Shown here in pieces: positions 8,915 through 34,790 of a stretch of 37,248 nt of DNA (position 1 is its first letter; the number at the start of each line of letters is the position of its first letter). A program made the position numbers and the translations under genes. Origin of the DNA: Gammaproteobacteria bacterium (GTDB taxonomy: Bacteria > Pseudomonadota > Gammaproteobacteria > Pseudomonadales > Azotimanducaceae); the NCBI GenBank assembly GCA_002731575.1, contig PCCE01000004.1, forward strand, positions 18,013 to 55,260. The letters run 5' to 3'. The notes beneath the pieces are model-generated. The model did not search any database. It was not told where the DNA came from and saw only the letters and a program-made list of their open reading frames with translations.

Positions 8915-10321
8915 TTAGTCAGCGCCGTCGAAGGCCACAGAGCCGCCAATTAGGGTGGCTCTAACGCCTACTGTTTCTGGTCGATCCCTGCCCTGCTCCC
9001 AGCGTTTTTGCAAAATACATAAATCCCCCCGCATCCCCGAGCAGACTTCCTGCGCTTGTGCCAGCGTGAGTGGCTGGTCAAGCAGAGCCGACGGGGTGAG
9101 GTATCCGGTCAGAGCCTGATCGGAACTCACACACTCGTCAGCACCCAGCGAAAGTCCCCCAGCGCTGCGGCGACATGCTGCGGTAGCGATATTTTGCCAA
9201 GGACTCACCGGCCCATAGGGTGCATCGCTGCTCGGGACAACTTTAACCCCACGAGCGCGTAAACCGGCATAACGATACAGGCACTCCAGCTCCTGCTGCG
9301 GTAAATCGGCCCGATACTGATCGCCCTTGCTGTAAAGAAATCCGGGCTGGGTAATCACCGGTAGATTTCTCGCCGCCAGTTCGTCCGCCATTGCATCGTC
9401 GATCACCGCGCCATGCTCGATACGATCAAAGCCTTGCTCAATAGGCGTGGCATCCGCCAAGGCCGCCAGCGCAAAGACCAGCTCTAAGTGTGTAACGCAG
9501 TGAAAGGCAATGTTGCGCCCGCGACTGCGGGCCGCGTTGATGCGCGCTACCAATGTTTGCAGCGCTGGCAGTCGGTCCTCGTCTAGCAGTACTTTCAAGT
9601 ACCCATGGTCTAGGGTGTCGTCGCCCATGAGGCTAACCTGCTGCAACAGCGCGCCGTCTGCGCGCAGCCGCTGCAGGTCTACTGCGCTTTTCTGGGTATT
9701 CGTTGCCGATGTATCAGTAACGCTGACAATGCCGAAGCTTGCGAGCTGACGCGAAAAGGCAGCGATATCAGGCATCGAGCTGGCACCAATTGCATCTAAC
9801 TGCTGGGCCATCAGTTCATCGTTGCGGACAACACAGCCTGTCAGTTGGCCGGAGGCATCGCACTGCACACCATTTAAGTGAGTAAACGCGCCAAGGTCTA
9901 GCGCCTGCACCGCGATGGAATTGCATACCCACAGCTTGCCGCTGCGATGCTGAATACGCAGGGGACGATGCGAACACAGCTCGTCGAGCCGCCAGCGATC
10001 TAGCTCGCCAAGCTGTTGTTCGTGATAATCCACACCGCGAATCCAGCCGCTACCCGGAGCGTTTGCCAAACGCTCAGCCAAGACCTCACGGCACCTCGCC
10101 AACGATCCCCCGCCCACATTGCAGCTTACCGAGCCTTGGGCCGCTGCCGCTGCAAACAGGTGAATATGATGGTCATGCAGCCCGGGCAGTATTTCACCGC
10201 CACCCGCATCGAGGACGCTTTCATTACGCATCGCGTTTAGCTGCGGGGCTATGGCCTCCACGGTTGCAGCAACGCGAACGTCTACTGGTCTGCCCTGCAG
10301 CCATGCATTTTTGATCAACAT
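8915..10321 (-). CDS. Metal-dependent amidohydrolase (family 3, YtcJ-like)
   Basis: 468 residues. The metal motif DHHIH is at 50-54 in ILPGLHDHHIHLF. HCVTHLE and FDRIEHGAVIDD supply later histidines, and VVPSSDAPYGPVSPW holds the late aspartate typical of amidohydrolase family 3. Such enzymes hydrolyse amide, ester or related bonds; the substrate is not predictable. It lies four bases downstream of the permuted CoA-transferase (stop TAG, then ACCG, then ATG), so the two are almost certainly translated from one message. The tight pairing suggests that hydrolysis and CoA transfer act on the same compound. Confidence 0.88.
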   Translation of the reverse strand: MLIKNAWLQGRPVDVRVAATVEAIAPQLNAMRNESVLDAGGGEILPGLHDHHIHLFAAAAAQGSVSCNVGGGSLARCREVLAERLANAPGSGWIRGVDYHEQQLGELDRWRLDELCSHRPLRIQHRSGKLWVCNSIAVQALDLGAFTHLNGVQCDASGQLTGCVVRNDELMAQQLDAIGASSMPDIAAFSRQLASFGIVSVTDTSATNTQKSAVDLQRLRADGALLQQVSLMGDDTLDHGYLKVLLDEDRLPALQTLVARINAARSRGRNIAFHCVTHLELVFALAALADATPIEQGFDRIEHGAVIDDAMADELAARNLPVITQPGFLYSKGDQYRADLPQQELECLYRYAGLRARGVKVVPSSDAPYGPVSPWQNIATAACRRSAGGLSLGADECVSSDQALTGYLTPSALLDQPLTLAQAQEVCSGMRGDLCILQKRWEQGRDRPETVGVRATLIGGSVAFDGAD

Positions 10322-10325
10322 CGGT

Positions 10326-11420
10326 CTACTGTCGCCTTAGATCGTGGTTCCCAGCAATAGGGCAGGCAAGGGCTTGGCCAGCTTGCTGGATTTTGTATCG
10401 GCAAGCCGCCGCCACACTATGCATTGACAGATCCAGCCTGCCACTGCGGCCCCGGGCGAGAGCGTCGGCTACTGCCAGTGCCGCAAATGTACCGGTGAGC
10501 GGATCAGCAACTGCATCACCAACAAAGCTCGGCTGGTACAGCTCATCCCATTGCAGTAGCTGGGCAGCGGCAGCTACATCGTCACCAAAGCCAACCCAAT
10601 GCCCGGCAGGCTCAGCCCGCCCATAGGCCGTAATGCCAAGCCAAATTTGCGGCCGGGTAACCGCGAGCGCCTCGCGATTCAAACCCAATCCCAGCAAAGC
10701 CCGTGGCCGCGAGGCTTCAATCACTACGTCAGCATTGGTAAGCAGAAGAGCCAGTTGCTGGCACTGCTGGGCATCCTCAAAATCTAGAACCAGATGCTCA
10801 TGGCCCGCATGCAGTTGGTCATACAAAAGCGGACTGCCCTGACGTGCACCGTCGGGCCGTTGGGTGCTGCTTACCACAGTCACAGCCGCGCCACAGGCCT
10901 GCAGCAAGTGGGCGCACAGTGGACCTGCCCACAGTGCCGATAGATCAACTACCCTTGCACCCGCCAGCGAACGCGCAGCCGTGGTTTGCGGGTCGGTAGT
11001 ACATTGGTGATCGAGTCTGAGACTGCTGACCTCTACCAGCCCGGGGCCGTCAACAAAGGCCAGCGGCAGGCCCATCTCCCGGCCACGGGCCTGCAGCAGT
11101 TGGCCCGACTGCTGATTGAGAGCCATTTGCAGAGTGTCCCAGTCACCCGGCGGTGTGTCGGTTTGCAGCCAAGCGCCAAGCAGTTGCCAATCGCTATCCC
11201 GGGCCAGATTCAGCGCCAGCCAGCCATCGGCGCAGCGCAGCAGTTGGCAGCTCGCGTTGGCCGATTGCTGCCCAACTGGTGCGATGCCAAGCTCTTCGGC
11301 TCTGGCACCCAAGACCCAGTTTGCCGTTGGTAAGGACGCTTGCGGATAGAAATGCGACAGGCCATTTAGGCCCTGATCGACACAAGCAGACAGGTCACGG
11401 GCAGGTATACTTATGGCCAT
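10326..11420 (-). CDS. Family III (CaiB/BaiF-like) CoA-transferase with inverted domain order
   Basis: The start chosen is ATG 11420 (MAISIPARDL), 364 residues; upstream in-frame ATGs lie inside the divergent gene. Normal family III enzymes begin with the Rossmann-like large domain and finish with a small domain. Here the small-domain signatures come first: LLRCADGWLALNLARDSDW at 60-78 and REMGLPLAFVDGPGLVEVSS at 114-133. The large domain follows: LAGARVVDLSALWAGPLCAH at 152-171, ADVVIEASRPRALLGLGL at 230-247 and GFGDDVAAAAQL at 277-288, with the probable catalytic Asp280 or Asp281. The protein ends just after GRLDLSMHSVAAA, where the small domain would normally begin. The normal-order enzyme at 33515 is an internal comparison. 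It probably moves CoA onto a carboxylic acid. Confidence 0.85.
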   Translation of the reverse strand: MAISIPARDLSACVDQGLNGLSHFYPQASLPTANWVLGARAEELGIAPVGQQSANASCQLLRCADGWLALNLARDSDWQLLGAWLQTDTPPGDWDTLQMALNQQSGQLLQARGREMGLPLAFVDGPGLVEVSSLRLDHQCTTDPQTTAARSLAGARVVDLSALWAGPLCAHLLQACGAAVTVVSSTQRPDGARQGSPLLYDQLHAGHEHLVLDFEDAQQCQQLALLLTNADVVIEASRPRALLGLGLNREALAVTRPQIWLGITAYGRAEPAGHWVGFGDDVAAAAQLLQWDELYQPSFVGDAVADPLTGTFAALAVADALARGRSGRLDLSMHSVAAACRYKIQQAGQALACPIAGNHDLRRQ

Positions 11421-12501
11421 GTCAAACCCACGCAAATTTGCCACTGGAAAGGTCATAACGCTAGAACAGTACTGCCGCTTGTTGCACAGCCCCATGTTGG
11501 CTGAAGAGCACAGCGTTGTCAGCGCTTGTCCTTACTTGGCAGTGGAGCTAGATAGCGGCACCAAGGTTGCTCATCCACCGACCCTAGCGACAGCTTGGCG
11601 ACCAACCACCGTAGTCATCGGCTTTGCCAGCCAGCCCGCGACCACACTGCCAGCACCAATCCAAGAGCTGTTGCCACTGTTCGACATGATCGCCGATACC
11701 ACGCTGCCAGCGCACTTAATCGACGGCGCGCTATACAACATTGACAGTCAGCCAATGGCCAGCGCAGCCTTGGTCCAGCTGCTGCGCCAAGGTGACAACA
11801 TGTCTGTTGAACACGCGTTGCAGATGGAGTCATTGACCTATTCAACGCTGCAGCACGGGACTGAATTCGAGGCGTGGCTGAGCCAGCAAGGCACCAAGAA
11901 CAGTGCTATGCGAATAAGCCAGTCTGCCGATATCAATGATACCTATGCAGCCGAGCAGCCTGTGGTGCTTTGTCATCGAAACGACGCCCAACACCTAGAG
12001 GTAACGCTTAATCGGCCAGCAAAACACAATGCCTTGTCTGCCGCCATGCGCGATGAATTGCATACCGCGCTGCTGTTAGCCGAGGCTGACGCTTCTATTG
12101 AGCGGGTTATCCTAGCGGGTAGCGGCTCCTCTTTTTGCGCCGGCGGCGATCTCGACGAGTTCGGCCTAGCGCGAGATGCGGCCCAAGCTCACCTTACCCG
12201 CACCACTCGTTCGCCTGCACTTTTGATCCATAGCATTCGCCATCGAGTCAGCGCTCAGCTGCATGGGGCTTGCATTGGTGCTGGCATCGAAATGACGGCT
12301 TTCGCCACGCAGGTTGTCGCAACCCCAGAGGCTTTTTTTGCCCTACCCGAGGTGGGCTTTGGGTTAGTGCCGGGGGCTGGAGGTACGGTGAGCGTACCCC
12401 GTCGGATTGGTCGACACCGAGCGGCGGCCCTAGCCCTTAGCGGTCAGCGCATCGATGCGCCTACGGCCTTGGATTGGGGCTTAATCGACGCCATTGCGTA
12501 G
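11413..12501 (+). CDS. Crotonase-family protein with permuted or extended N-terminus
   Basis: 362 residues starting at ATG 11413 (a weak AGG about 7 bases upstream). Residues about 185-362 form a crotonase core: VTLNRPAKHNALSAAMRD, the oxyanion loop GSGSSFCAGGDLDEFG (236-251), HGACIGAGIEM and LPEVGFGLVPGAGGTVS (311-327). The protein stops at LDWGLIDAIA, lacking the roughly 70 C-terminal residues that crotonases use for trimer packing. An equivalent-looking helical segment, LVQLLRQGDNMSVEHAL then MESLTYSTLQHGTEFEAW, is instead at residues 120-155. This suggests circular permutation, or a degenerate first crotonase copy fused to a C-terminally trimmed second. It is divergent from the permuted CoA-transferase, sharing its start bases. 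CoA-thioester hydratase or isomerase activity is likely. Confidence 0.85.
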   Translation: MAMSNPRKFATGKVITLEQYCRLLHSPMLAEEHSVVSACPYLAVELDSGTKVAHPPTLATAWRPTTVVIGFASQPATTLPAPIQELLPLFDMIADTTLPAHLIDGALYNIDSQPMASAALVQLLRQGDNMSVEHALQMESLTYSTLQHGTEFEAWLSQQGTKNSAMRISQSADINDTYAAEQPVVLCHRNDAQHLEVTLNRPAKHNALSAAMRDELHTALLLAEADASIERVILAGSGSSFCAGGDLDEFGLARDAAQAHLTRTTRSPALLIHSIRHRVSAQLHGACIGAGIEMTAFATQVVATPEAFFALPEVGFGLVPGAGGTVSVPRRIGRHRAAALALSGQRIDAPTALDWGLIDAIA

Positions 12502-12520: not shown

Positions 12521-14038
12521 TTACTGCAACTGCTCCACAAAAGCGGCCTTAACCACCCGGCGTAGCAGCTTGCCGGTTTCGTTGTAGGGAAGCTCATCCC
12601 AGACTTTCATATGCGCGGGCACCCGGGAACTGCGCAGTTGGGACTGCACCAGATCTTTCAGTTGCTGCTCATCAATGCTAGCCCCGGCCTTTGCCACTAC
12701 TGCTGCGGCTACCGCTTCACCCCACTGCTCATCTGGTACACCGACAACGGCAACATCTGCAACCGCCGGATGCGTGAGCAAGACATCTTCGATTTCTCCC
12801 GGCGAGAGGTTTTCACCGCCACGCACGATCACATCATCAGCGCGACCCTCTAAAAATAGATACCCCTCATCATCCATGCTGCCGGCGTCCCGGGTCGGGA
12901 ACCAGCCGTCGGCGTCTACTACCGAGCCCTTGCCTTCGTACTCGCCGGATACCTGTTCACCGCGCACATAAATTTCGCCACGCTCACCGGCACTCAGTAC
13001 CCGACCCTCATCGTCACGAATTTCGATTTCTACACCGGGCAGCGCTTGGCCCACCGACACTAAGCGTCGCCGACCGGCTTCAGTAGTACTCGCCACCGCC
13101 TCACGATGGGCATCTGGACCGAGCACGCAAATGGTGGAGCTGGTTTCGGTCAGGCCGTAAGCGTTAGAAAAATCTGTTGTAGGGAACAGTGTCATCGCCT
13201 TTTCAATTACGCTGAGCGGCATTTTACCGCCACCGTAGGCAAGACTATTCAAATACGGCATATCTGCCTGAGCCACACCTTGAGCTTCTAGGGTTTCAAC
13301 AATGCGCGCCAGCATGGTGGGTACGACAAATGCCGTGGTCACTTTGTGCTGCCGCGCCAGTTCGATCCAGCGCTCGGCATTAAAGTTCGGCAGCTGAATC
13401 ACATGACGACCTGAGTAAACCGAACTCATAATCGCCGCAATGCCGGCTATATGGTAAGGCGGCACGCAGACTAGAGAAGCGTCGTCCTCTGGCGCACTGG
13501 CAAATTCTACCGAACCAAGAATGTAGCTCACCAAGTGCTTATGCCGAAGTACTGCCGCCTTGGGTTCGCCAGTAGTGCCGCTCGTGAAAAGAAGTACGGC
13601 GATCTCGTCTGGGTCCATGGCCCATTCGCCGGCGACCGGCGCTGGGTTCTGGGCAGGGTCGAGGAACGCATCGGTACTTACCGCGTGCACGCCATCTAGC
13701 CCGCCAAAGGCATCAACTCGGTCTGACGAGGTAACTAGATAGGCAGGGGTCACCCGCTTCAACAGCGCTGCTATCTCCTCATCGGTGAGGCGATAGTTCA
13801 GCGGCACATAAGGCACTCCGGCCCATGCGCTGGCAAACAAACCTAGGGGTGTACCCAGATTGCTGACATCGAGCTTAGCCATGCGGCTTGAACCTTGGTC
13901 CGCAATAGAACCAGCGCGCAGCCGGGCGGCTTCAAACAGTTCGCTGTAGGTGTAGGTCAAACCGCGTTCACCGTCGGTAAACGCCGGGCGATCGGGAAAG
14001 GCTCCACTGGCCATTTCCAGCAGCATCATGACATTCAT
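12521..14038 (-). CDS. AMP-forming acyl-CoA synthetase (class I adenylate-forming)
   Basis: 505 residues, normal length. The ATP-binding loop LLFTSGTTGEPKAAVLRH spans about 149-166. YGLTETSS is the acyl-adenylate motif A5, and FPTRDAG then GRADDVIVRGGENLSPGEIE are the ribose-binding and hinge motifs. The C-terminal catalytic lysine is Lys490 in NETGKLLRR. The enzyme converts a carboxylic acid, ATP and CoA to acyl-CoA, AMP and pyrophosphate; it is shorter and more soluble-looking than long-chain FadD. Chain specificity is not readable. It starts nine bases after the small three-cysteine gene at 14048 and is presumably cotranscribed from the promoter at 14389-14417. Confidence 0.95.
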   Translation of the reverse strand: MNVMMLLEMASGAFPDRPAFTDGERGLTYTYSELFEAARLRAGSIADQGSSRMAKLDVSNLGTPLGLFASAWAGVPYVPLNYRLTDEEIAALLKRVTPAYLVTSSDRVDAFGGLDGVHAVSTDAFLDPAQNPAPVAGEWAMDPDEIAVLLFTSGTTGEPKAAVLRHKHLVSYILGSVEFASAPEDDASLVCVPPYHIAGIAAIMSSVYSGRHVIQLPNFNAERWIELARQHKVTTAFVVPTMLARIVETLEAQGVAQADMPYLNSLAYGGGKMPLSVIEKAMTLFPTTDFSNAYGLTETSSTICVLGPDAHREAVASTTEAGRRRLVSVGQALPGVEIEIRDDEGRVLSAGERGEIYVRGEQVSGEYEGKGSVVDADGWFPTRDAGSMDDEGYLFLEGRADDVIVRGGENLSPGEIEDVLLTHPAVADVAVVGVPDEQWGEAVAAAVVAKAGASIDEQQLKDLVQSQLRSSRVPAHMKVWDELPYNETGKLLRRVVKAAFVEQLQ

Positions 14039-14047
14039 TGCTGGCGC

Positions 14048-14359
14048 CTAGTCTGTTTTCGGTAGCTGCTTGGTATCTTTTTGCAGCATCAGTGCACCGT
14101 TAACGGCCAAGCTGCCATCGCCTGCTTTGACGCAAAGTACTTCGAGAGATTCGTCCTCAGTGATGTAGCGTTTGCCCATGGCAATACCAACCGCATGTTC
14201 CGGATGCACTTCTGCGCCAGCTTCGCCTGCGCCGTTTGGATCGATCATGGCAACTCCGCCACAGGTAAGTTCCACATCAGCATCAGACGCCGATACCACC
14301 ATAATTTCACCGGCGCATACTGCGCTCTTTAGACGACCACCGGTTTTTAGCGTAGGCAT
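14048..14359 (-). CDS. Conserved-looking small three-cysteine protein, unknown function
   Basis: 103 residues, ATG 14359 behind GGGGAGAAATC. I do not recognise a named domain. The sequence is soluble, acidic in the middle, and carries three cysteines, each in a glycine- or charge-flanked setting: SAVCAGE (Cys15), LTCGGVAM (Cys33) and VLCVKAGDGSL (Cys76). GKRYITEDE precedes the last. It is the first gene of the transcript that continues into the acyl-CoA synthetase, with nine bases between them, so it probably assists or regulates activation of the acid. I have the impression that similar small genes sit beside fadD-type genes in mycobacteria, but this is memory and not checked. Base use resembles its neighbours. 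Confidence 0.8.
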   Translation of the reverse strand: MPTLKTGGRLKSAVCAGEIMVVSASDADVELTCGGVAMIDPNGAGEAGAEVHPEHAVGIAMGKRYITEDESLEVLCVKAGDGSLAVNGALMLQKDTKQLPKTD

Positions 14360-14417: not shown

Positions 14418-14478
14418 AGTGTCTCGGTCATACGAACTTGCGATTCAGCAACAAAGGTATATGCAAGGGAGAGAGAAC

Positions 14479-15534
14479 ATGCGCATTTCTATATCCATCG
14501 GCTCGGCTTATTACAACGGTGAAGAGTGGGATAGCTTAGTGGACTACACCATGGCCGCAGATCGCATGGGCGTTAACGAAGCCTGGTCCGCAGAAGCTTG
14601 GGGCATGGACGCCATTGTCCCCTTAGCCTATTTGGCAGCAAAGACCGAGAACATTCGCCTAGGCACTGGCATTATGCAAATCAGTTCCCGAGTGCCTTCC
14701 ATGATGGCAATGACAGCGCAAAGCCTTGATACGGTATCCAATGGCCGCTTTAACATGGGTCTTGGTGTCAGTGGTCCGCAGGTAGTAGAAGGGCTGCATG
14801 GTGCTTCATTCGCCAAACCCCTCTCCCGACTTCGAGAGTGCATGGCGATTTTGCGTCTGGCCCTGAACGGCGAGAAGCTGCAGTACGATGGCGAACACTA
14901 TGTGTTGCCGCGGCCCGGCGGTGAAGGCAAGCCGATTCGACTATCGCAACCACCACGACCCAACCTGCCAATATATCTGGCCACACTGGGCCCGAAGTCA
15001 CTGCAAATGACTGGCGAGCTGGCCGACGGCTGGCTGGGCACCTGTTTTTTACCGGAGCAGGGACACGTGTTCTTAGATGACTTGCGTGCAGGCGCGGCTG
15101 CGGCAGGCCGCAGTCTGGCAGACATTGATATTCAAACCGGCGGCTACTTTGAAATCAGCGACGACGTGGAGCGTTTAATCGCCGCACGTAAACCTGCCAT
15201 GGCCTTTACCTTGGGCGGCATGGGTTCTGCGAAAACTAATTTCTATAACGACGCCTATTGCCGTGCGGGTTACGAAGACGACGCCAAAGCCGTACAAAGC
15301 CTATGGATCGACGGCAAGCGCGATCAGGCCGTGGCTCGGGTACCCGATGAAATGGTCTTGCTGACCAATCTGATTGGTACTGAGGACATGATCCGTGAGC
15401 GTCTGCGTGCCTTCCGCGATGCCGGTGTGAACACGTTCCGGTTAGCTACCGGTGGCGAGAGCTGGAAGGATAGAACCTCTGCCTTAGAGGAAGCAACTGA
15501 TCTAATACAGCGCGAAGCCAAGGCGTGGGCTTAA
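14479..15534 (+). CDS. LLM-class oxidoreductase of the F420-dependent type
   Basis: ATG 14479 follows GGGAGAGAGAAC; another ATG at 14461 in frame is less well placed. 351 residues. The protein has the TIM-barrel luciferase fold with GVNEAWSAEAWGMDAIVPLA, RLGTGIMQISSRVP, and especially GLGVSGPQVVEGLHG, LSRLRECMAILR and PIYLATLGPKSLQMTGELAD. Those last patterns resemble the F420-binding LLM branch common in mycobacteria rather than FMN luciferases. Whether the host makes F420 cannot be seen here; FMN use is the alternative. It starts a plus-strand run with the DJ-1/PfpI protein (64 bases on) and an SDR (96 bases further). It probably performs a hydride transfer on a catabolic intermediate. Confidence 0.88.
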   Translation: MRISISIGSAYYNGEEWDSLVDYTMAADRMGVNEAWSAEAWGMDAIVPLAYLAAKTENIRLGTGIMQISSRVPSMMAMTAQSLDTVSNGRFNMGLGVSGPQVVEGLHGASFAKPLSRLRECMAILRLALNGEKLQYDGEHYVLPRPGGEGKPIRLSQPPRPNLPIYLATLGPKSLQMTGELADGWLGTCFLPEQGHVFLDDLRAGAAAAGRSLADIDIQTGGYFEISDDVERLIAARKPAMAFTLGGMGSAKTNFYNDAYCRAGYEDDAKAVQSLWIDGKRDQAVARVPDEMVLLTNLIGTEDMIRERLRAFRDAGVNTFRLATGGESWKDRTSALEEATDLIQREAKAWA

Positions 15535-33514: not shown

Positions 33515-34750
33515 CTAGTAGTCGCCGACCACCTGAGCGTCGATCAAAGATTGAATCGCTTGGGCCTCATAGCCTAACTCAGCAAGAATTTGCCGACCGT
33601 GCTCACCCAAGTGGGGGGCGCGGCGCGGTGCTGGGTCACTGGCCGTATCAGCATCCTTGCTGTCCGATCCGTCCGATCCGTTCGGGCCACCTGCAAAAAA
33701 GCCCGGCTGCAGGTAGCGCAACGTGCCCAAGTCCTCATCTTGCATGGTTTGTAGCGCGCCGCTAGCCGCAAGCTGGGGGTCGGCGAGAACGTCACCAAGT
33801 GCATTCACAACAGCGCAGGGTATGTCGTTAGTGCTGAGCTGCTGCTGCCACTGGGTGTTGCTGTGGCGCGGTGCGACTTGGGCGATCAATTGATATAGCT
33901 CGTCGATGCGATTCGAGCGGGCGGCTGCATCAAGAACCCAGTCCGCTCCCGCAAGTGACCGTTCACCGACCAGCTGCAGAAACTGAATCCACTGTTTGGT
34001 GCTATAGGGCATGATCGCCATATAGCCGTCGGCGGTTTTAAATGGCCTGCGGTTGGCGGTCATCATCCGCTCGTAACCCATCTCGCCTTGCGCGGGCTCC
34101 ATGGTATGGCCAGCAAGATGCTCGGCCAGCAAAAAGCTGGTCATATTCTCGAGCATTGGTACTTCGATACTTTGCCCTTCGCCAGTGCGCAGCCTGTGCA
34201 CTATGGCCGCAGCTATTGCCAGCGCCAAGTGCAGGCCCACGACTTTGTCGCAGACCACACTGCGCAGGAACTGTGGTGCATTGTCCGCATCGGCGTTTAA
34301 GGCTGCGACACCGGAGCGAGCCTGAATAATGTCGTCATAGGCGGGACTATTGGCGTCCGGACCATGGCTGGCAAATCCCGGCGACCAGCAGTAGACCAAG
34401 TCTGGCTTAAGCAACCGCAACTGCTCATAGGCAATACCCAGCGCCAAGGCAGACATACCACGCATGTTGTGCACGACGACGTCTGCGTCTTTGACCAAGT
34501 AGCCGAGCACTTCTTGACCCGCAGGCTGTTTTAGGTCGAGAACGATACTGCGCTTGTTGCGATTGAATGCCGCAAAACCTGCGCCAATATCCGCACTGGG
34601 GCCGGGACGCACGGCGCGAAAACCATCACCGGCAAATGGTTCAACCTTGATGACCTCGGCGCCAAAATCCCCGAGAAACTGTGTGGCGTAAGGCCCCAAC
34701 ACGATGGTAGTAAAGTCTACTACCTTGATGCCTTCGAGCAGTTTCAACAT
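33515..34750 (-). CDS. CaiB/BaiF family III CoA-transferase (normal domain order)
   Basis: 411 residues from ATG 34750; TTG 34762 is possible. It opens with LLEGIKVVDFTTIVLGPYAT and FGAEVIKVEPFAGDG, then ADVVVHNMRG and PAYDDIIQARSGVAAL, where the aspartate before the isoleucines is the probable catalytic residue. The small domain comes last (TADGYMAIMPYSTKQW, DIPCAVVNALGDVLADPQL), as in ordinary family members. Near the end is a low-complexity GSDGSDSKDADTASD insert, encoded by a tandem 9-base repeat at 33662-33679. It transfers CoA to a carboxylate. Same strand as the MFS gene 40 bases upstream. Confidence 0.94.
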   Translation of the reverse strand: MLKLLEGIKVVDFTTIVLGPYATQFLGDFGAEVIKVEPFAGDGFRAVRPGPSADIGAGFAAFNRNKRSIVLDLKQPAGQEVLGYLVKDADVVVHNMRGMSALALGIAYEQLRLLKPDLVYCWSPGFASHGPDANSPAYDDIIQARSGVAALNADADNAPQFLRSVVCDKVVGLHLALAIAAAIVHRLRTGEGQSIEVPMLENMTSFLLAEHLAGHTMEPAQGEMGYERMMTANRRPFKTADGYMAIMPYSTKQWIQFLQLVGERSLAGADWVLDAAARSNRIDELYQLIAQVAPRHSNTQWQQQLSTNDIPCAVVNALGDVLADPQLAASGALQTMQDEDLGTLRYLQPGFFAGGPNGSDGSDSKDADTASDPAPRRAPHLGEHGRQILAELGYEAQAIQSLIDAQVVGDY

Positions 34751-34790
34751 GGCGCTAGGCAATAGCCACCCATACCGATATCAGCAGCCA

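Follow-up and report, generated by a model that had tools for sequence, protein, structure and literature searches.

We describe here a family III CoA-transferase (CoAT) whose chain consists of the small domain followed by the Rossmann domain, which departs from the normal order in PF02515, where the Rossmann domain comes first, the small domain follows and the chain then returns to the large domain. The protein is encoded in a stretch of gammaproteobacterial DNA of 37,248 nucleotides (hereafter the window). Since the dimers of family III enzymes are threaded through one another, a natural version with swapped order makes it testable how such an interlocked fold evolves or simplifies, and the permuted CoAT raises the question of whether its site works in one chain. 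Also newly described here is that the divergently transcribed neighbour, an enoyl-CoA hydratase, looks permuted as well. These two neighbours are inherited together, which hints at a shared cause worth finding, and such a pair, one rearranged and the other apparently so, found together across three phyla amounts to a natural test of re-wiring interlocked enzymes.

Domain order of the permuted CoA-transferase

The longest open reading frame from its first ATG (10326-11495, minus strand) encodes 389 residues. The methionine at 11420, which aligns with the starts of relatives and was also chosen in the preliminary description of this DNA, gives the protein of 364 residues whose numbering is used throughout; the plus-strand reading of 10326-11420 is interrupted by stops. 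Profile positions 1-199 of 366 of PF02515 match residues 152-337 (177-362 of P0001, the 389-residue reading) with 114.4 bits, a whole-protein score that exceeds the curated cut-off of 23.3, and just 27 residues follow the end of this match. The segments CADGWLALNL and MGLPLAFVDG lie at about residues 63-72 and 116-125, respectively, ahead of ARVVDLSALWAGP, which starts at about 155. The WAGPL, RPD and GFGDD motifs of the Rossmann domain show no variation across the 10 sequences of an alignment (A1) of the window CoAT and nine relatives. The same genome holds, at 33515-34762 (minus strand), a paralogue in which residues 9-360 are collinear with PF02515 positions 1-345, so the contrast with a normal-order enzyme drawn in the preliminary description stands. 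The features discussed in this report are collected in Table 1.

Table 1. Features of the permuted CoA-transferase, its cassette and related proteins (positions are those of the window)
Feature	Position or locus	Strand	Length, evidence and remarks
Amidohydrolase (Amidohydro_3)	8915..10321	-	Pfam; frequent partner of both permuted genes
Permuted family III CoAT gene	10326..11420	-	364 aa
Rossmann large domain, CoAT residues 152-337	10410..10967	-	PF02515 1-199, A1 alignment, Foldseek
Small domain, CoAT residues ~33-123	11052..11324	-	Normally mid-chain, here N-terminal; PF02515 218-262, hhalign, collinearity, model
N-terminal stretch, CoAT residues 1-32	11325..11420	-	Short; A1 alignment
Enoyl-CoA hydratase (crotonase) gene	11413..12501	+	362 aa; divergent from CoAT; ECH_1 profile
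Four predicted helices, hydratase residues ~100-160	11710..11892	+	H100-112, H114-127, H132-147, H150-160 (model)
Crotonase core, hydratase residues ~184-361	11962..12495	+	Profile; both catalytic Glu positions kept
Acyl-CoA synthetase	12521..14038	-	Normal domain order
Conserved 103-aa protein	14048..14359	-	Often with the cassette
Two-copy family III CoATs	L024 (own genome, C68), L120, L131-L142		~800-870 aa

Evidence for the small domain

Scanned alone, the N-terminal fragment of the window CoAT matches PF02515 218-262 at 16.1 bits, which does not reach the cut-off of 23.3. The separate alignment of the two halves that the preliminary description had proposed as a check therefore succeeds for the C-terminal part and falls short of the cut-off for the N-terminal one. 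With such a weak single-sequence match, the small-domain half is carried by profile and position tests. When a profile of 45 permuted sequences (the 47 collected minus L010 and L056, both cut) was compared using hhalign with one of 13 normal paralogues, all from the window's own genome, the N-part aligned to normal positions 179-351 (P 2.3e-5, probability 76%, score 42.6), the C-part to positions 45-244 (P 1.4e-33) and the last stretch to positions 396-419 (P 0.0016). Among 300 column shuffles of the N-part, 299 scored at most 23.6, and one scored 134 over an 8-column alignment. High-scoring shuffles of this kind (one of 300 for the CoAT and two of 300 for the hydratase, with 8-18 columns and scores of 133-134) are in our view program artefacts, and once these short-alignment outliers are excluded the top shuffle scores 23.6 for the CoAT and 20.9 for the hydratase.

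The position test gives a concordant picture. The best local match of the N-part is collinear with this placement in 33 of 36 normal-order CoATs (37 were given, one of which had no match). In 40 column shuffles the share is 31.5% on average and 56% at most; these figures are to be read knowing that the range counted as collinear was chosen after the rows of a cruder count (28/36 versus 58% expected) were known. The four best matches of the N-part profile to single CoATs (12.7-20.2 bits) are all to member A of the normal-order gene pairs described below, the rest scoring 6.0 bits or less, and every match of a small-domain (S) profile to single permuted proteins is at most 3.9 bits. This weak small-domain match in single sequences counts against the explanation that we favour. 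An AlphaFold model built from A1 (mean pLDDT 76.1, pTM 0.83) agrees with the domain order. Among the 50 Foldseek matches listed for this model, the best are 5yit (Rv3272), 4ed9, 9zav and BbsEF, and family III structures align over some 200-230 columns with a query TM of 0.43-0.49, which is to be expected if just one domain can be aligned in order. The proposal of the preliminary description, small domain first and large domain second, is thus borne out by PF02515, the profile comparison, the position tests and the model.

A probable trimmed tandem rather than a clean circular permutation

While the swapped order is real and conserved, a clean circular permutation, in which each part is present once, the old ends are joined and new ends lie elsewhere, is not what the CoAT displays. 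The profile comparison covers normal positions 179-244 two times and leaves 351-396 without an equivalent, and the tail that closes normal enzymes (396-419) also comes last in permuted CoATs. At the N-terminus of longer relatives, PF02515 matches at 120-177 (L002) or 132-177 (L003 and L004), each time weakly (11.7-12.5 bits), so that these members carry a second, worn piece of the large domain's end before the small domain. The N-terminal fragments of L005 to L009 give no PF02515 match, and the window CoAT is short at both ends, with neither remnant clear there in A1. Trimming of a tandem copy is one of the usual routes to a permuted protein, and a duplicated piece of the large domain combined with a retained C-terminal tail is what one expects when a tandem copy has been cut back in both places. 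A trimmed half of a two-copy protein had been named beforehand as an outcome that would speak against the swapped order; the trimmed-tandem pattern is seen, yet the swapped order holds.

Distribution and selection

A scan of genome contigs returned 10 relatives: one that is 86% identical, from a proteobacterial bin (L001), and others from Novosphingobium (two), Sphingobium (one), Mycolicibacterium or Mycobacterium (four) and Myxococcota bins (two). A1, from which L010 was left out because it is cut by a contig end, has one common domain order in all its rows, eight of which are 34-42% identical to the window CoAT and one 86%. A plasmid search added 15 records matching at 1e-20 (10 from Rhodococcus, two from Sphingobium, two from Streptomyces and one from Sphingomonas). 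Altogether, we collected 47 CoAT sequences from Proteobacteria, Myxococcota and Actinomycetota (46 distinct including the window's own, L056 being a cut copy of it) and 28 hydratase sequences (27 distinct, L026 being a cut copy of the window hydratase). The CoAT set was picked by the A1 profile with a limit of 180 bits, so that normal-order proteins could not enter, and the hydratase set by its score with the profile A2; both sets therefore share their order by selection, and it is the wide existence of permuted CoATs that is informative. The similar actinobacterial proteins that the preliminary description had mentioned are among them, with the same domain order. In the six annotated relatives whose records were read, all six bear the plain name CoA transferase, an annotation that hides the swapped order.

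Compared with the L001 copy, the window CoAT has a dN of 0.079, a dS of 0.399 and a dN/dS of about 0.20 (0.37 for the N-part and 0.12 for the C-part), and the hydratase has a dN/dS of 0.17. Purifying selection seems to act on both genes.

The neighbouring enoyl-CoA hydratase

Residues 195-361 of the hydratase match positions 7-173 of 251 of the ECH_1 profile (PF00378) with 128 bits, and the protein ends there. The crotonase core with its oxyanion loops is present, with Glu in both key columns in 28 of 28 rows (one of which is a cut duplicate); we take these two conserved residues to correspond to the catalytic Glu of rat ECH. The C-terminal helices expected after the core of crotonases are absent, the chain stopping at profile position 173. 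Instead, four helices precede the core in an AlphaFold model (pLDDT 67.4, pTM 0.69, with residues 1-87 and 160-180 below 50), and the N-part profile (28 sequences) aligns by hhalign to crotonase positions 226-294, directly after the core (P 3.7e-4, probability 36%), two of 300 shuffles lying above the real score, both as short alignments. In the one alignment shown with PaaF (4fzw_A), A2 has two matches whose order is exchanged: positions 146-321 correspond to 7-180, and 77-124 to 191-238 with 5.1 bits.

Tests on single sequences do not discriminate clearly. Placement of the N-part is C-terminal to the core in 12 of 20 cases versus 38% under uniform placement, and in a narrower place in 10 of 20 versus 37.5% (maximum 67%) over 40 shuffles; the five matches with a positive score are all in place, the best having 13.1 bits versus at most 5.2 in shuffles. 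Counting against a permutation, a Pfam scan of eight hydratase N-terminal fragments gave no crotonase match. It is likely, albeit not proven, that this hydratase is also permuted, its C-terminal helices lying ahead of the core. A tentative extension, which we hold to be rather doubtful, is that both of these unrelated, oligomer-forming CoA enzymes were rebuilt by the same tandem-and-trim route in three phyla, with two-subunit sites each brought into one chain and the two enzymes possibly acting in one complex. The starts of the two divergent genes overlap by 8 bases (11413-11420), leaving no separate promoter region between them.

The cassette and its co-occurrence

At the 10 loci of the contig scan, within the flanks covered, the CoAT is accompanied by the amidohydrolase in nine (not L005), the hydratase in eight (not L002, and L010 is cut), the synthetase in six and the 103-residue protein in six. 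The latter, which has no Pfam or NCBIfam match at E 0.001, accompanies the cassette in proteobacterial and Myxococcota loci. On plasmids, hydratase, CoAT and amidohydrolase occur together in all six regions read (of the 15 records). Across genomes, at E <=1e-45, the CoAT is found in 12 of 296 Actinomycetota and the hydratase in exactly those 12; in Myxococcota the counts are 28 and 33 of 188, with both in 27; and among the window's relatives including its own genome they are 33 and 50 of 97, with all 33 shared. Fisher tests that ignore genome relatedness give 1.3e-21 (Actinomycetota), 9.2e-26 (Myxococcota) and 1.2e-13 (relatives) for this co-occurrence, absences being soft since the number of candidates scored in each genome is limited.

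The cassette neighbours an F420-type oxidoreductase and an acyl-CoA dehydrogenase in the window, parts of a ring-hydroxylating dioxygenase in Sphingobium and 3-hydroxyphenylpropionate-type genes in Rhodococcus DK17. From this company, we infer that it may catabolise ring-containing or branched acids. The oxidoreductase gene next to the window cassette (14419-15534, plus strand) encodes a luciferase-like protein that matches models of F420-dependent subfamilies, with 333.8 bits for TIGR03559 (cut-off 335), in a proteobacterial genome. On a Streptomyces plasmid (L077), the cassette adjoins a complete-looking mycofactocin set (mftA to mftG and mftR).

Normal-order CoA-transferases at the same cassette

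Seventeen relatives of the window have the hydratase without a permuted CoAT at E 1e-45, and 16 were inspected (G013, which has CoAT fragments, was omitted). An adjacent pair of normal CoATs is present in eight of these, one pair member lies at a contig end in two, and the rest have a single normal CoAT (two), a fragment at a contig end (one) or none (three). Among the six Myxococcota genomes with the hydratase and without the permuted CoAT, five have a normal CoAT nearby. The adjacent, often overlapping, pairs sit within the cassette (L105, L106, L107, L108, L110, L114, L115 and L116), one member being split between frames in L107 and L115. In six of the eight (not L110 or L114), the small-domain region of one member, called B, has diverged and shows up as a gap where the normal profile is aligned. 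Normal-order CoATs are also found inside the same 11-kb loci as the permuted one in L003, L004, L005 and L007, with two in a row in L007.

Origin of the swapped order

CoATs with two copies in one chain are present in some of the genomes that have the permuted CoAT (the window's own, G004 and G077). With the permuted Rossmann profile, the second copy outscores the first in all 16 chains with two Rossmann matches (18 chains were listed, two of which had one match and were left uncounted), but this preference is not specific, since the normal Rossmann profile likewise scores the second copy above the first in 15 of 16. A tree of 89 Rossmann domains places the permuted clade (bootstrap 100) on the side of 16 second copies, pair member A, ordinary paralogues and one first copy (bootstrap 100); a closer grouping with 15 second copies, member A and two others has a bootstrap of 74, and closer groupings all have 74 or less. 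An earlier tree of 64 Rossmann domains with fewer two-copy chains had joined the permuted clade to member B and first copies at 67. Once more two-copy chains were added, the clade moved to the second-copy side. We take the earlier placement to be long-branch attraction, and the point is weak.

For the small domain, a first tree had two first copies as neighbours (71), and a larger one (86 sequences, 87 columns) placed member B closest (88), then first copies (42-57), the permuted clade being apart from 15 of the second copies (86). The link to member B is contradicted by profile comparison of the small domain, in which member B has a P of 0.18. The other groups compared have P values of 3.7e-6 (member A), 4.7e-4 (ordinary paralogues) and 6.8e-7 (a mixed group with two-copy chains among its members). 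A tandem origin of the permuted CoAT is plausible as judged from these sequence comparisons.

In the scenario that we favour, two CoAT copies would most likely have been joined head to tail, after which the large domain of the first copy would have largely disappeared, as would the small domain of the second, so that the small domain of one copy and the Rossmann domain of the next could form one whole site in a single chain. The resulting protein would act with the rearranged enoyl-CoA hydratase and the amidohydrolase, often with an acyl-CoA ligase, in a cassette that would degrade ring-containing or branched acids. With moderate confidence, we consider this account as a whole – a working family III relative, trimmed from a tandem, that acts with the rearranged hydratase and the amidohydrolase in a catabolic cassette – to be the probable one. 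Of its elements, the domain order, the conservation, the low dN/dS and the co-occurrence are observed, whereas the trimmed-tandem origin, the site in one chain, CoA transfer and the pathway are inferences.

Active site and alternative explanations

Where solved relatives have the catalytic Asp, the permuted CoAT has a Gly in the alignment, and a pair of Asp follows one and two places later (GFGDD, residues 277-281, instead of the usual pattern around the catalytic Asp). All 47 sequences (one of which is a cut duplicate of the window's) keep GDD after [GA][FWL], and 30 have exactly GFGDD. With a Gly in place of the Asp and then two Asp, the covalent Asp mechanism may be altered, and CoA transfer by this protein is best regarded as presumptive. 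Two papers (PMC9196870 and PMC12246613) describe the site of normal family III dimers as formed across subunits. The normal site joins the Rossmann domain of one subunit to the small domain of the other, and the permuted chain may hold this pair in one polypeptide.

Several other readings have to be weighed against this. That the swapped order is an artefact (assembly error, frameshift or pseudogene) might be suspected of a genome as fragmented and incomplete as that of the window (71 contigs, 69% complete), but the identical order in named records of Novosphingobium, Mycolicibacterium, Rhodococcus and Streptomyces and the low dN/dS of the CoAT refute this, and we give it practically no credence. 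The hydratase-only relatives invite another idea, namely that the permuted gene is a fused remnant that replaced a pair of ordinary cassette CoAT genes encoding a heterodimer: eight of the 16 inspected have an adjacent normal pair and five more have at least one normal CoAT. We find this quite improbable, as three of the 16 have no normal CoAT in the region and permuted and normal-order CoATs lie near each other in L130 (G058), L003, L004, L005 and L007, the presence of both kinds there leading us to reject pair replacement as the whole story.

Two readings remain. The family III architecture might be kept by domain swapping, in a homodimer with cross-subunit contacts in which the change of order is neutral and no one-chain site exists. 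Normal enzymes are dimers with cross-subunit sites, swapped partners can absorb a swapped order and the single-chain AlphaFold model does not discriminate between cis and trans. Nothing speaks directly against this reading, which we regard as rather unlikely; the lack of a counterpart for normal positions 351-396 suggests that the old second linker is gone. It is a little more doubtful still that the protein is no longer a CoA-transferase, having kept the CoA-binding fold and lost the covalent Asp, and is instead a racemase, a hydrolase or a partner subunit of the hydratase. This would fit the Gly in the canonical Asp column of the profile alignments, the strict co-occurrence with the hydratase and the stretch SANASC in the window CoAT, which we take to be the probable counterpart of the glycine loop of Frc, and which is rich in Gly (SAGGGC, SAGGAT, APGGGC and the like) in seven of the 10 A1 rows. 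However, GDD is kept in 47 of 47 sequences, and a shift by one residue could bring an Asp to the site.

Comparison with known systems

The permuted CoAT shares its Rossmann domain and motifs, and by profile its small-domain signature, with family III CoA-transferases (PF02515; Frc, CaiB, YfdW, Rv3272, BbsEF and SUGCT). It differs from them in that the Rossmann domain comes first in the family and second here, in the lack of a counterpart for positions 351-396 and in GFGDD or a close variant of it. The permuted profile matches 35 PDB sequences, and in each of them the Rossmann match has begun by chain residue 48, too early for a small domain to fit ahead of it. Within the collection of papers searched, none came up on circular permutation together with family III CoA-transferase, CaiB or crotonase. 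Alpha-methylacyl-CoA racemases (MCR) have the same fold and, as described in PMC12246613, a cross-subunit active site, but their domain order differs; matched to the permuted profile, MCR reaches about 50 bits, less than most of the transferases and on a par with CaiB. The two-copy family III proteins, our proposed source, consist of head-to-tail copies whose second Rossmann domain reaches 56-116 bits against the permuted profile, and unlike the permuted CoAT they carry two Rossmann domains, one per copy. As for the neighbouring hydratase, its core has both Glu columns as in crotonases (PF00378; PaaF 4fzw, ECHS1 and EchA8), from which it differs in that the regions resembling their C-terminal helices precede the core, at whose end the chain stops.
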